From assembly GCA_003117195.1 (NCBI GenBank), contig BDSI01000099.1:208479-272478 (forward strand): a stretch of 64,000 nucleotides of DNA, in the 5' to 3' direction. This document shows positions 1 to 28,655 of the stretch, piece after piece. The stretch comes from Eudorina sp. 2006-703-Eu-15. Lineage: Eukaryota > Chlorophyta > Chlorophyceae > Chlamydomonadales > Volvocaceae. Position 1 is the first letter of the stretch. Every line of letters starts with the position of its first letter. Below the pieces are notes generated by a model, which did not search any database, was not told the origin of the DNA, and was given only the letters and a program-made list of their open reading frames with translations. The position numbers and the translations under genes are program-made.

Positions 1-22869
<22,869 letters not shown>

Positions 22870-23841
22870 TGAGACAGGGCCGGGCGCACAGGTTCGATGT
22901 GCAGAAGACTAACTTCAGCCGTCGCCGTGTTGTAGCAGCTGGGCAGATATCAACATGTATGATGACGGACACATTTCTTAGTGTCTAATGTTTCCTTACG
23001 TGACCACAATGAAATTGGACATTAGGCTATATCGCAAGGGTTGAGTATGGGTTCATGTTTCCTCAAATAACGTCGGTTCGAGCGACTAACAGCAATGTTT
23101 GTCCTGCCTGCGAGGAGTGTACGCTCACTCCAAGGCATTTGTGTTAATTTCCTGAATTGCATGATTGCAGTGTCTAGGAAGCGATCATTACTACAAGGGG
23201 GACCGAGTCCCACGTGCGGATCCTGTTTAGGTATAAAGTGTACGGTAATCCTTTATCCGATCGCCAGGTCAGCATGTACGTCAAAAAGAAACTCGTTGCT
23301 GCAAACAATGTAATGTGCTGAATTCTGACACACTGGCAAAGTACATTGCGTTTTAATTCGCCCTGCAGCTCCGACTTGAAAAGGGAGTGTCAGGGTTCAT
23401 GGTGACGATTGATGACGGATCATTTCTTGCCGTAATCCAGTTTCTTGACTCAGGCCCAGCGGATGGAAACTGTAAGAGTTATGACCGGGACCGGAGGCGG
23501 ACCGGAGGTTGATGTGAAAAAAGGTTGGATTGGATTGAATTGGATTGGATTGGAGCGCTTGCTTTTTGATAGGAAGTGGCTACTTTCGTTTCGTTGCCCC
23601 TGCTTTCTACCTTCTTTCTGCCGTACAATAATCTTCCTACTCGCCGAGCAGCATGTCCCTGTGTATATGTCAGTGGTGAAGGTAGGCAAAAAGTACGAGT
23701 ATCACTTTGTCGTGTTGGCTTTTTGCTTTTTCGTGGGCCTTTTGGACGAGCAAATGCCGCAACAGCAATGTGAACTTGTCATTAGTTGTGGATTAAGATA
23801 TTGAGACTAACTGCCGATATGCAATAGGTGAACAACGGTGA
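22870..23841. other. Intergenic region between the ankyrin gene start and the Rep gene
   Basis: No convincing gene was seen. The region is less GC-rich than the flanking exons. It holds a pair of direct repeats (GATGACGGACACATTTCTT at 22961-22979 and GATGACGGATCATTTCTT at 23411-23428), a TTGGA-type tandem run (about 23524-23556), and a short inverted pair CTAATGT/ACATTAG (22985-23025). It may hold divergent promoters, or the left end of a mobile element and its replication origin. Confidence 0.45.
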
Positions 23842-23985
23842 CGTTGGCAGAACGTAAAATACGCGCATTTGTTGTCATTGTTTGCGCCCGACGTAATTGG
23901 AACATCTAAACTAGTTACAATCGCGGAACAACGGACCGGCCCTAGCGGCCATGTTCACGGCTTCCAAGGCCTCCTTGCCGAGGCA

Positions 23986-25959
23986 ATGTTGCCCGTTCCG
24001 GCAGGTGATCCTGCGGCAGCCGGTCCCTCAAACGCACAAGGCCGTGTGGGCATGCCCACGATTGGCAACGTGCAATCCAATAGTAATGTATCCAACAGCG
24101 GAAACTTGTCGGCTCTGGGAGCCGTCCAGCACTTACTTGCAGTTCAGCACCTTCAACAGCGGCATGCGGCCCAGCAGCAGCTGGTTCAGCAAGCTGCATT
24201 ACAGCAGCACCTTCGCGCTCAACAGTTACAGCAACTACAGCAAGCCCAGCATCAACACCAACTTCGAAACGCTTTCCGGTTACAACAAGCGTTGCAGCAA
24301 CAAAGTGAGCAACAACAGCGTGTGGTCATCGCTCCGGGCCATCACGGTGATGCCGTCGCCGGCAACGGCGCAGCTGCCGCCGCGGTTACCCCCGCCGTTA
24401 TTATAGGCGGGGCGTACGGTGGTGGAGGTGACGGCGGGGCAAGTGCTGAACCTCCAGCTACAGTTGGCCGCGGTGGCGGTTCAACTGGCGATGGCGGCAG
24501 GGGAGCAACCATCACGCGCGGTCGGGGCCGGGGTCGCGGACGCGCCACCAGTGGCAGCGGTCGCCGCGGACGGAGCGGGTCGCGAGGTCGTGGCGGTCGG
24601 GGCCGCAGTGGTGGTCGACGACGTCGCAATTCAGGGTCAGATGCCGATGATGAGGATGGCGGCAGCGACTCTGATGATGCTGTGGGCGTTGGGGAGGAGG
24701 GGACAGCCGGCGAGGTGGCGTCAGATGCAGAACCCGCAGAGGAGGCAGGGCGGTATGGAGTTGCATCAACAGCGAAACCTGGCCGTGATAAGGCGGATGT
24801 GTATCCCCTAACGGAGTGGAGCATAACATTGTCGCAGCGGTGTAACGATGTTCCTAAGTCATGGGTCACCATAGTGGGGACATGGATTCACAACGTCTGC
24901 GATGCTGGCTTCGTGGCCTACGAACGTGGCACACGGAACGAACGTGGGCATCTGCAGGGCTGCATTCGGCTGTACTGGCCGACCGACAAGGCGTTCAAAA
25001 CCCGGCTGACAGCTATACTGAAGGATCTGTTGGGCGTGCGTGTTCACGACGGCAGTGCATTCGTGGTGAAGCCGTTCGCCCGTGAGCAGTCGTGGCTGGC
25101 GGTGCTGGGGTACTGTCAGAAGGACATGGGGTTGTCGCACTACCACTTCGCACGCAAGGAGTGTGACAACGTCATGCTGGCGGAAGCACGCGCGCAGTAC
25201 CGAGTGGTGGGGCGGAACTATCGTGGGGACCGCCGCCTCTTAACCCGCAAGGAGTTTGGAGCGGAGGTGTTGGGGTTCTACCAGCAGCATGTGGCGCCAC
25301 TCCAGATTCCCTTTGAGCAGGTGGTCTGGCACATGATTCGCAGCGGGCGGTATGTTCCCGATCATTCCTGGCTGTCCCCGGCTGTGGGCCGTGGCGTGGA
25401 TCTCCGTCGTGCTCGGGCGTTTATGCAGTGTGTGCAGTCGCCGGCAACTGTATCGGTGCTGGATGTTGCTACCGTTTTTTTCGAGCCCATTCACGGCACA
25501 ATGCTGCACACGTTGCGGCAGGAGTGGGGCTACGAGTTCGGAGGGGAGGAAGGCTTTGATTGGCACTCATCAAAGCACCGAGCTGAGCGCAACTATCGCG
25601 ACCTGGTGGAGCGGCGGCGTCAACGCGGCGATTTACGCCCGGAGGAGATCACGAAGATGCCGTGGGATATGCCTGACGGTGTCATCATGCGGATGGGGGA
25701 CCGCGTCATGGATTGGGACGCGGTTCAAACAGCGGTGCGTGCCACGCGAGGAGGTGACGCGGAGATTCCAGTCGGCGTTGAGGTTGAGGTTGGTGAGAAT
25801 GCAGTTGTGTTTGCGAATGCGCACGATGAGGATGTCGGGCGATATGATGCAGCCGAAGAGTGGGTCACGTTTCGCGATGCGGAGGGTGACGCGGCTGACG
25901 AGCCGTATGTTGACGCCGATGAGGACCCCGGTTTCCCCCGGTGCATGGACACATCCTAA
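23986..25959 (+). CDS. Rep-type HUH endonuclease (candidate Replitron-like / CRESS-Rep-related transposase)
   Basis: 657 codons from the first in-frame ATG. The frame stays open back to 23842 with no ATG, so an upstream exon (possible acceptor GTTGGCAG) is possible. N-terminus: Gln/His-rich coiled stretch, then an RGG/RGRGR basic region, then an acidic Asp/Ser tract. The nuclease core follows: motif I TEWSITL (276-282), motif II GHLQG (321-325; metal-binding His and Gln) and motif III YCQK with nicking Tyr376. In this family the single tyrosine nicks one strand and stays covalently on the 5' end. About 280 further residues are unrecognised, with an acidic tail. No Walker A/B motif was seen, so this is neither a full CRESS virus Rep nor a Helitron RepHel (one Tyr, no helicase). 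The frame is intact. The neighbouring RPA-like gene converges on it, with stops 14 bases apart. Confidence 0.75.
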   Translation: MLPVPAGDPAAAGPSNAQGRVGMPTIGNVQSNSNVSNSGNLSALGAVQHLLAVQHLQQRHAAQQQLVQQAALQQHLRAQQLQQLQQAQHQHQLRNAFRLQQALQQQSEQQQRVVIAPGHHGDAVAGNGAAAAAVTPAVIIGGAYGGGGDGGASAEPPATVGRGGGSTGDGGRGATITRGRGRGRGRATSGSGRRGRSGSRGRGGRGRSGGRRRRNSGSDADDEDGGSDSDDAVGVGEEGTAGEVASDAEPAEEAGRYGVASTAKPGRDKADVYPLTEWSITLSQRCNDVPKSWVTIVGTWIHNVCDAGFVAYERGTRNERGHLQGCIRLYWPTDKAFKTRLTAILKDLLGVRVHDGSAFVVKPFAREQSWLAVLGYCQKDMGLSHYHFARKECDNVMLAEARAQYRVVGRNYRGDRRLLTRKEFGAEVLGFYQQHVAPLQIPFEQVVWHMIRSGRYVPDHSWLSPAVGRGVDLRRARAFMQCVQSPATVSVLDVATVFFEPIHGTMLHTLRQEWGYEFGGEEGFDWHSSKHRAERNYRDLVERRRQRGDLRPEEITKMPWDMPDGVIMRMGDRVMDWDAVQTAVRATRGGDAEIPVGVEVEVGENAVVFANAHDEDVGRYDAAEEWVTFRDAEGDAADEPYVDADEDPGFPRCMDTS

Positions 25960-25973
25960 CCGTCAACTTGCCT

Positions 25974-27703
25974 TTAATCGTCGGCGACGTCGGCTGCGCG
26001 GGCGCGCTTGGGGGCGCGCGGCCTGGGTGGCGGTGTGAAAGGCTGCGATGGCGCTTGCTGGCTGGCGGCACCCATCAGCTGCAGCAACATGATGTTGAGG
26101 TATCCGTCCTTCTTCCAGACGCCCAAGATGGCCTTGGTGTTGCGCGTCTTGTCGATGACCGACATTTTCGTTGTCTCACGCTGCTTGGCCGATAATGCGC
26201 GCTGCGCCGTGAGGAACGCAGAGCACGAACTGTAGCCAGTGAGGGCGTTGCCCGCGTGCTCGAAGATGCGCAGCTCCTGCCGGCCAACCGGCACGTCGAT
26301 GTAGATCTTCATAAGGTAGACCGCCTTGGCGTTGGCAACCGTCATGCGACATTGCTTGCAGTAGATGCCGTCATCCTTCTCCACGCAGGGGTGCTCCGTG
26401 CTGCTGACCCAATTGCCGCAGCGCCAGTCCGCGATGGTGTCCGTGCGGGCTGTGATGGCGGCACCGCGGAGTATAGCTGCAATGACGTAGTTGCCGTCAG
26501 GCTTCGAAGCGAGGGAGTCGAAGGGAGTCGCGGCCTCGATGTCCTTGTAGTGCGATGGACGGACCTGTGGGTCGGTTACGGGCATTCCAAAAGTTAGTAG
26601 GTGTGATTTTCATAACAAAGACAAGTGTACACAATGTAATACCGGCAACGACGACAAAGTGTGACTAGTTTGCACCCATCTTACCCCTAAAAGCGGCTTC
26701 GTAGCGGTCGCGTGCTTGTACAGATTTGCGGCGGCGAGCTGCTCCTCGGACACCAGGCTGTCAAGCGCAGAGTCGAACCAGTCGGAGCCCGTAACAGCGC
26801 GGACACGCCGGAAGAACTTGTCCTGGTAATATGCTGCGTCGCACCGAAAGCCGATTAACACGACAAGGTTGCCGGCCCTCGGGAGAGGTTTGCCGACGTC
26901 GGTGCAGGCGGAGACGGTCGACGGCGAAAGGAAAACTTCAACAGTCTCGAAAGCTGTAACCAGTCGACCGGCCCACGACGCCTTCTCCTTGCCAACCAGT
27001 CCGCCACTCTCCAGGTACCCAATGACGTTGTAGCAGTGGTTAGGCGCGATGTCAGGCAAGGGCGTGATCGGTACTGTCATATCCAAGACAGCAGCCGTCG
27101 GAGCACTCGCAACCACCTCGCTGTGCTTCAGGACCTTCACCACGTCGTCATCGTATAACGGCGACAAGGTGATCTTGCGATGGCAGGTAACGTTGTAGTT
27201 CAGATCTGGTTGCTCCAGCGACAAACTGTTGATCTGCAGATACCTCCCGCGGATTGCGTCGGCAACGAACGGCGCCTCTTCGCCGTTCTGCACATGTACC
27301 TGAAAGACAGTCGCAACAACGCGAACATACAACCATTGCTGTGACTGTATTATGCGGCGCGGTTTCATGAGCGGTGCTTTCCATCATTCTACACGACCGT
27401 TACAAACGCCGCGCACAGCAGCGATCAATCAGTCCTTCACATACCAAAAAGTATTCTATGACGCCACAGTGCTAGCATTCATCAACAGCATGCGCACTTG
27501 CGGTCGCCTGCCCCATGTCCCAACGAACTCACATTGAATAGGTACTCATCGGACGTCTTCGTCTGGAATGTCATCCAGCCTTTCTCGTCGGCATCGCTGG
27601 CAGTGAGGATGCGAACTACCAGCACCCCAGGTTGCTCCCCTGTCAGCTCGGCGACATCAGCTCCAAACAGCAATCGAAGCGAACCTGCCTGTTCGGCGGC
27701 CAT
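25974..27703 (-). CDS. RPA1-like single-stranded DNA-binding protein, three exons
   Basis: Exons 27703-27533, 27299-26685 and 26564-25974 join in phase 0 to give 458 residues. The start is ATG at 27703 (MAAEQAGS). Intron 1 has donor GTGAGT; intron 2 has donor GTAAGA, a TACTAAC branch-type sequence and acceptor CCCACAG. Exon 3 carries a zinc ribbon, Cys311, Cys322, Cys331 and Cys334, in the context DGIYCKQC, followed by beta strands and FEHAGNALTG. This layout matches the zinc-binding DBD-C fold of the RPA large subunit. The earlier 260 residues look like one or two OB folds (for example CYNVIGYLESGG). It is shorter than typical RPA1 (about 600 aa) and shows no N-terminal protein-interaction OB domain. 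The C-terminus is Pro/Arg/Lys-rich (PRAPKRARA), a possible nuclear signal. Tail-to-tail pairing with a Rep nuclease suggests an element-borne RPA rather than the host gene. Confidence 0.72.
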
Positions 27704-28655
27704 GCTTCAAAAGATTTCAAATTCTGTATACCGACGAATCATTGCCATCTCAATCATTCACCACACACCAATGCTCCCATCTCTATTCGTCCAGTGTCGT
27801 GCGTCTCGTCCACTTTATCGTAACTTTCTTGTACAACTTCTTATTTGCGTGTGTGTATTTTTGGAAATGCTGGTAGTACAGCCATTAGAGTCGTTGAAGC
27901 AAGGCTCTATAGGAGTGTTGTAAAGAAACGAGTACGAGGCAGACGGATACTGCATGCGTGCGTGGTTCAAGCAATTATCCGTTCCGCGCTTCCGTCACTT
28001 GTTTCCCGTCCTGTTGCCCATGCACCCGGGCCCTATCGATTAGTCGAGTACCCATACATGTCGAGTCCTACATGCATGCAACCACTGCACAGTGAGGCCG
28101 CAGGTAATAACCTTGTCGTGTTCGTTATCGGCCCCACCCACGTGTTCGTTATCTGTGCCAACCGACCGACCTCATTTGTCCGCGTATCTCACATATTCGC
28201 GGCGGCGCACGCAAGCAAGCGAGGGTTCGTTTGACCAGCAAGCATTACCAAATGGACGCACTGCCCGCCGTGTCCAATGGGAATGTATGCCGGCATTTGC
28301 GCCCGTGTGGCGCGCTTGCACACGTACATACGGTGGGAGATGGATGCACACAGCAGCAGCAGCAGCGGCGGCATGTGAAACACGCGAGCGCCAGCAGGCT
28401 GCTGCCTGCTGCTGCCCGTGGCTGGACTACTGGCTGCTGGTGACTGGGCTCCGCACGGGCCCCACCCTATGCAATGAGATGCTCACACTCACGCTTTTTC
28501 GATCCCTGGCTATGGCTGGTCATCAGGAACGGGGTGGTTCCCTGGTACAATGCGTGGGTGCCGAGTTGGCGTGCTTCGGTGCACATGAGGAGCCTGTCCG
28601 GTGCGTGCGCCACGACGGTTTCGTTTCTGCAGTGTGCGGTGAGGAAGCTGCGGCT
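27704..28655. other. Region upstream of the RPA-like gene, no gene seen
   Basis: The first 250 bases are AT-richer and may be the promoter of the minus-strand RPA-like gene. TGTTCGTTATC occurs twice within about 30 bases (28118-28155). A CAG/GCA run lies near 28350-28420. No exon with a coherent protein was found. The right boundary of a Rep/RPA element may lie here but could not be fixed. Confidence 0.4.

Follow-up and report, generated by a model that had tools for sequence, protein, structure and literature searches.

The 64,000-nucleotide stretch of Eudorina sp. DNA analyzed here (the window, which lies on contig C99; other contigs of the assembly are designated likewise) contains a gene for a Rep-type HUH endonuclease beside a gene resembling RPA1. 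This arrangement raises the questions of whether the two genes belong to one mobile element, which group such an element represents, and what an RPA-like protein might do in it. Helitron transposases combine a two-tyrosine HUH domain with a helicase, CRESS Rep proteins carry a one-tyrosine HUH endonuclease followed by a superfamily-3 helicase, and Replitrons transpose by copy-and-paste. To our knowledge Replitrons have no helicase, and we know of no settled account of how their single-stranded intermediate is made or protected. Their founding description is reportedly that of Craig (2023, PNAS e2301424120). An earlier note on this DNA had proposed a new rolling-circle-type element, Replitron-like or CRESS-derived, that had recruited its own ssDNA-binding protein.

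The Rep open frame spans 23869-25959 on the plus strand (696 aa), and an ATG at 23986 within it begins a 657-aa protein (23986-25959), the putative Replitron transposase, whose N-terminal third is rich in Q and GRGRGR. The earlier description of an intact one-tyrosine HUH protein with WSITL, HLQG and YCQK motifs agrees with our motif scan of the whole protein, which placed WSIT at residue 278, HLQ (motif II) at 322 and YCQK at 376 (657-aa numbering) and showed a single YxxK. The candidate catalytic tyrosine (Y376, positions 25111-25113, plus strand) is kept in P0001, the one Rep relative found among public proteins (47% identity over 74% of the searched region), which comes from a metagenome contig of 4065 bases; PHROGs gave no matches. 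Rep contains no Walker A pattern, and its Pfam matches include no helicase family, so the absence of a helicase motif, also claimed previously, was borne out. The HMM search that the note had recommended for the 657-aa protein matched both Replitron domains far over the Pfam cutoffs: Replitron_HUH (PF21859; 114 bits, E 7.6e-33, cutoff 28.5) at 24826-25203 on the plus strand, residues 320-445 of the 696-aa frame, and Replitron_C (PF21860; 77.6 bits, E 9.5e-22, cutoff 27), which we take to be an oligomerization domain, at 25252-25482 on the plus strand, residues 462-538.

Because both domains score so far over cutoff, the element belongs to a known group, the Replitrons, and the proposal of a new type is contradicted. 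Judged from these domain matches, the region from 23660 to 27860 is almost certainly a Replitron, and probably an autonomous one. Of the two origins suggested earlier, Replitron-like holds, as does the recruitment of a ssDNA-binding protein, and a CRESS origin is needless. Rep shares a one-tyrosine HUH endonuclease with CRESS viruses and plasmids but, unlike CRESS Rep, has no superfamily-3 helicase pattern, and in Pfam it matches nothing but Replitron models; a CRESS provirus was rejected on these grounds. A Helitron was also rejected, since Rep has one YxxK, no Walker A pattern and Replitron domains, whereas the Helitron protein has two tyrosines and a helicase.

To define the unit, the 181-Mb assembly was searched at the DNA level with positions 23000-28200 of the window. 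The 37 matched pieces were read as 12 copies, with one 102-base match on C30 set aside. The copies comprise that of the window, eight shortened ones (C49, C29, C120, C66, C3, C580 and two on C88) and three diverged ones (C18, C5 and C48). The shortened copies retain approximately 23660-24500, 26540-27144 and 27219-27860 and lack 24501-26539 and 27145-27218, with junctions that agree within 2 bases in all eight; the C120 copy has one further small gap. Such uniform junctions must mean common descent of these copies from a single founder that already carried the deletions and had neither gene intact. Both outer ends are common to the window copy and the eight deleted copies, and the shared limits of similarity give a whole element of about 4.2 kb (23660-27860). 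Within it, Rep on the plus strand and the RPA-like gene on the minus strand stand tail-to-tail with their stop codons 14 bp apart, so the arrangement noticed earlier is that of one repeated unit. The two genes are therefore placed, with high confidence, in a single mobile unit of which the RPA-like gene is a part.

The sequence TGTGTAT is present at both ends of the element (23660-23666 and 27852-27858, plus strand) and constitutes a 7-bp terminal direct repeat. The 5' end was TGTGTATATGTCAGTGG in 6/10 copies examined, and the remaining 4/10 diverge upstream of TCAGTGG. At the 3' end, TGTGTATTT was found in 11/12 copies examined (the exception being C18) and GTGTGTATTT, with which the element ends, in 10/12. 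No inverted pair linking both element ends was present among the 25 of 39 pairs listed, and a hairpin test of the termini gave a modest signal at the 5' end (z -1.86) and none at the 3' end, to which we attach no weight. GTATTT-like units in variable number continue past the 3' ends of the C29, C120, C48 and second C88 (C88b) copies, for which slippage or target choice could be the cause.

The C66 and C580 copies have common flanks, and the eight deleted copies therefore represent seven insertion sites. When copy flanks were joined and searched, with 40 of 123 candidates scored, empty counterparts were found for three insertions of deleted copies. The C66 flanks run uninterrupted at at least nine other places (seven of them inspected), C49 has at least two empty relatives (both inspected), and the C88 pair has at least three empty sites that contain neither copy; no empty counterpart of the window copy was among the candidates scored. 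No target duplication was visible at these three sites, where the ends are uncertain by 1-2 bases and the empty sites are paralogous. Roughly 1-4 bp of target was lost or changed, depending on end placement, and the three placeable junctions (C66, C49 and C88a) have a T at the target 3' side. In the C88 pair (C88:287768-291880), two deleted copies face each other head-to-head, about 2 bases apart; as they differ in small gaps, insertion of one into the 5' tip of the other is probable. The search for copies, which the earlier note advocated in related algal assemblies, was productive within this genome, yielding multiple copies, common ends and empty sites.

The RPA-like gene begins at the ATG at 27703 and reads on the minus strand through three exons (27533-27703, 26685-27299 and 25974-26564) separated by GT-AG introns, all of phase 0, to encode 458 aa. 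The first two exons rest on the splice model and on comparison with P0002, a Pleodorina starrii hypothetical protein (PLESTB_000449400) listed on three contigs and 61% identical to the RPA-like protein over the full length of P0002. This comparison decided the exon 1/2 junction and displaced a 473-aa model (acceptor 27345) in favor of the 458-aa model (acceptor 27300); the 473-aa model had served as the query for the identification of P0002, one solved-structure search and one curated-library search. Four cysteines (C311, C322, C331 and C334) in the Cys4 zinc-ribbon region (26349-26420, minus strand) are invariant across the window protein, P0002 and a relic on C23 (3/3 aligned). The previously noticed RPA1-like gene adjoining Rep is confirmed as an intact gene model of 458 aa, with the four cysteines of its putative zinc ribbon conserved.

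The RPA assignment itself comes from exon 3, which resembles the RPA1 C-terminal domain. PF08646 matched this exon at E 2.9e-4 and 21.1 bits, below the 28.5 cutoff, and matched P0002 at E 8.6e-4, also below the curated cutoff. NCBIfam rpa1 matched exon 3 far below its cutoff (E 0.035, 12.6 bits) and gave no match to P0002. Exon 2 had no profile match of its own, and the C23 fragment matched no Pfam family. Aligned with four RPA1 domains by hhalign, the RPA-like profile scored 27.2 (probability 42%), compared to 18.6 for the best of 100 column shuffles. With sub-threshold matches, this hhalign probability and an unmatched exon 2, the name RPA-like is therefore likely, not proven, and the profile comparisons make an RPA-like fold of the minus-strand protein quite likely. 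A profile search of proteins with the family gave only P0002 and P0003 among 8000 candidates scored, and scans of IMG/VR with Rep, P0002 and alignments A3 and A4 gave no relative.

Canonical RPA1-type genes are found elsewhere in the genome. A profile search of the contigs gave PF08646 domains over cutoff on C51 and C154. Solved RPA1 chains are matched by the one on C51 (best 6i52_C, E 4e-9). The element's protein has no significant similarity to either gene, and the candidate of a host RPA1 orthologue was rejected for this reason. The element's own gene was not listed in the PF08646 genome search (E up to 0.01), consistent with its divergence. The earlier note had considered that the gene might be the single-copy host RPA1; instead the unit is multi-copy, and canonical RPA1 is elsewhere and dissimilar.

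Comparison of the copies shows how the two genes have been maintained. Both are open only in the window copy; that of C18 has frameshifts and a Rep reduced to a piece, and in C5 Rep is broken and most of the RPA-like gene is gone. Between the window and C18, the codon positions of the RPA-like gene are 91, 91 and 72% identical, compared to 51% for the introns, with a dN/dS of 0.18 for 453 codons. For Rep, dN/dS was 0.18 (178 codons) and 0.18 (134 codons) in segments compared with C5 and 0.12 (90 codons) in the comparison with C18. RPA exon 1 against C48 gave 0.43, over 53 codons only. Purifying selection has held on both Rep and the RPA-like gene.

Locus L073 on C23 holds, at 2376-4178, an old relic of a second Rep-RPA element, about 30% identical. 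What is left of the Rep C-terminus there (34% over 70 aa, E 2.5e-11) stands tail-to-tail with what is left of the RPA C-domain (29% over 124 aa, E 2e-16), and no HUH domain was found at the locus. Since the pair keeps its orientation at this level of identity, the arrangement is older than that divergence. Whether a previously undescribed volvocine Replitron lineage gained its RPA-like, ssDNA-coating protein early, well ahead of the split of the branches seen today, and independently of Helitron RPA, is a question on which we are evenly divided. The earlier note had also envisaged that no other copy of the pair might exist; remnant pairs on C18, C5 and C23, along with the eight deleted copies, show otherwise.

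Other Replitrons of the genome were located with the HUH profile, which matched 19 places: the window, C5 (two pieces), C29 (two), C17, C77 and twelve others, whose near-equal scores make them look like one family. No RPA homologue (E up to 10) was listed in 16 loci covering 1.5 kb each side of the other HUH domains. At lowered stringency, stretches of 6-6.5 kb at three of these four HUH loci (two on C29, one each on C17 and C77) also gave none, with a best chance score of 5.2 bits. The Replitrons of C29 and C17 have, after the Rep frame, another frame with many CxxC pairs, which may encode a zinc-finger tail or a second protein. Replitrons of different kinds also cluster (C17, C29, C49 and C88): of the 28 places listed, 5 pairs lie no more than 5 kb apart, whereas random placement (2000 runs) predicts 0.03 pairs and yielded at most 1, a null that is weak for transposon-rich regions. 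Elsewhere in the window, two minus-strand frames (19081-19443 and 21534-21947) resemble each other (HPQDA.FTLLHFL... and ...RKHGVYLQ) and may reflect duplication of part of a gene or a further repeat. In the same assembly, an exon of the Rubisco small subunit agrees at 58 of 59 residues with PDB chain 9hvm_B (small subunit, chloroplastic 1); this chain and 1gk8 come from Chlamydomonas reinhardtii, to which the host is most probably closely related.

The minus-strand gene could instead encode an element-specific protein that is not RPA, with a likeness confined to the Cys4 zinc ribbon. The profile matches do come from the Cys4 region only, exon 2 matches nothing, and the structure models are uninformative: AlphaFold gave a pLDDT of 31.3 for P0002 with three further rows and 37.5 for window exon 3 with P0002, both too low to read a fold. 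When the protein and its profile were compared with the sequences of solved structures, all matches were at chance level. We nevertheless judge this reading unlikely, because in both curated libraries the family indicated is the RPA1 C-terminal domain, with no other family listed, the profile score exceeds all 100 shuffle controls, and the length is near the 472 aa that PMC4683698 gives for the Helitron RPA of the rice Mothra mother element.

If the protein is RPA-like, it might still be a passenger, a captured copy of host RPA1 without part in transposition, comparable to the gene pieces captured by Helitrons. That the other Replitrons of the genome have no RPA in the stretches examined shows that Replitrons can manage without one. 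Set against this are the dN/dS of 0.18, like that of Rep, the survival of the tail-to-tail order at about 30% identity in C23, and the lack of significant similarity to the canonical genes on C51 and C154, which together make a passenger improbable. Still less credible is a chance meeting of a Replitron and an independent RPA gene, a reading to which the presence of both open genes in the window only lends something. In eight further copies the two genes, or what is left of them, lie between the same outer ends, and the Rep and RPA remnants stay tail-to-tail in C18, C5 and C23; we give such coincidence hardly any weight.

The reading that we prefer, and hold as a whole to be likely, is a lineage of RPA-bearing Replitrons in which Rep nicks, an RPA-like protein coats the strand, and deleted copies are mobilized in trans. 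Rep would cut one strand at a terminus through its single tyrosine and stay attached to the 5' end, and host replication would free the single strand, as an element without a helicase must rely on the host for this step. The RPA-like protein, for which a role in transposition by ssDNA coating is probable, would cover the freed strand, prevent its folding and shield it, and may also hold this strand ready for transfer into the target during copy-and-paste. Because both of their genes are broken, the deleted copies presumably relied on proteins acting in trans, and this suggests that little beyond the ends is needed in cis.

The element resembles known Replitrons in both Pfam domains, its one tyrosine, the lack of a helicase and of terminal inverted repeats, and its green-algal host. 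PMC10741241 describes Replitrons with short terminal direct repeats of 5-11 bp (7 bp here) and no terminal inverted repeats, sizes of 0.9-4 kb, compared to 4.2 kb here, and insertions that can make 2-8 bp target duplications, whereas none was seen at our three sites. The RPA-like gene is a further difference. Plant Helitron RPA genes (PHRPA) are well described, and were found only in monocots and dicots (PMC4683698). Like the RPA-bearing Helitrons, the window element is an HUH transposon, encodes an RPA-like protein of comparable size (458 versus 472 aa; PMC4683698) and has deleted copies that apparently moved in trans. An RPA-bearing Replitron was not found in the literature searched (HUH, Rep, RPA, transposon, alga), a set that excludes the founding Replitron paper; judged without that paper, the accessory RPA-like gene may be new among Replitrons.

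That selection has maintained an RPA-like gene within the element is a pointer to a single-stranded intermediate in Replitrons. As the other Replitrons of this genome appear to be without such a gene, its role is testable by comparison. If the early gain independent of Helitron RPA is true, the element supplies its own strand-protection factor, and HUH transposons with a helicase (Helitrons) and without one (Replitrons) would have converged in meeting the same need in the same way.
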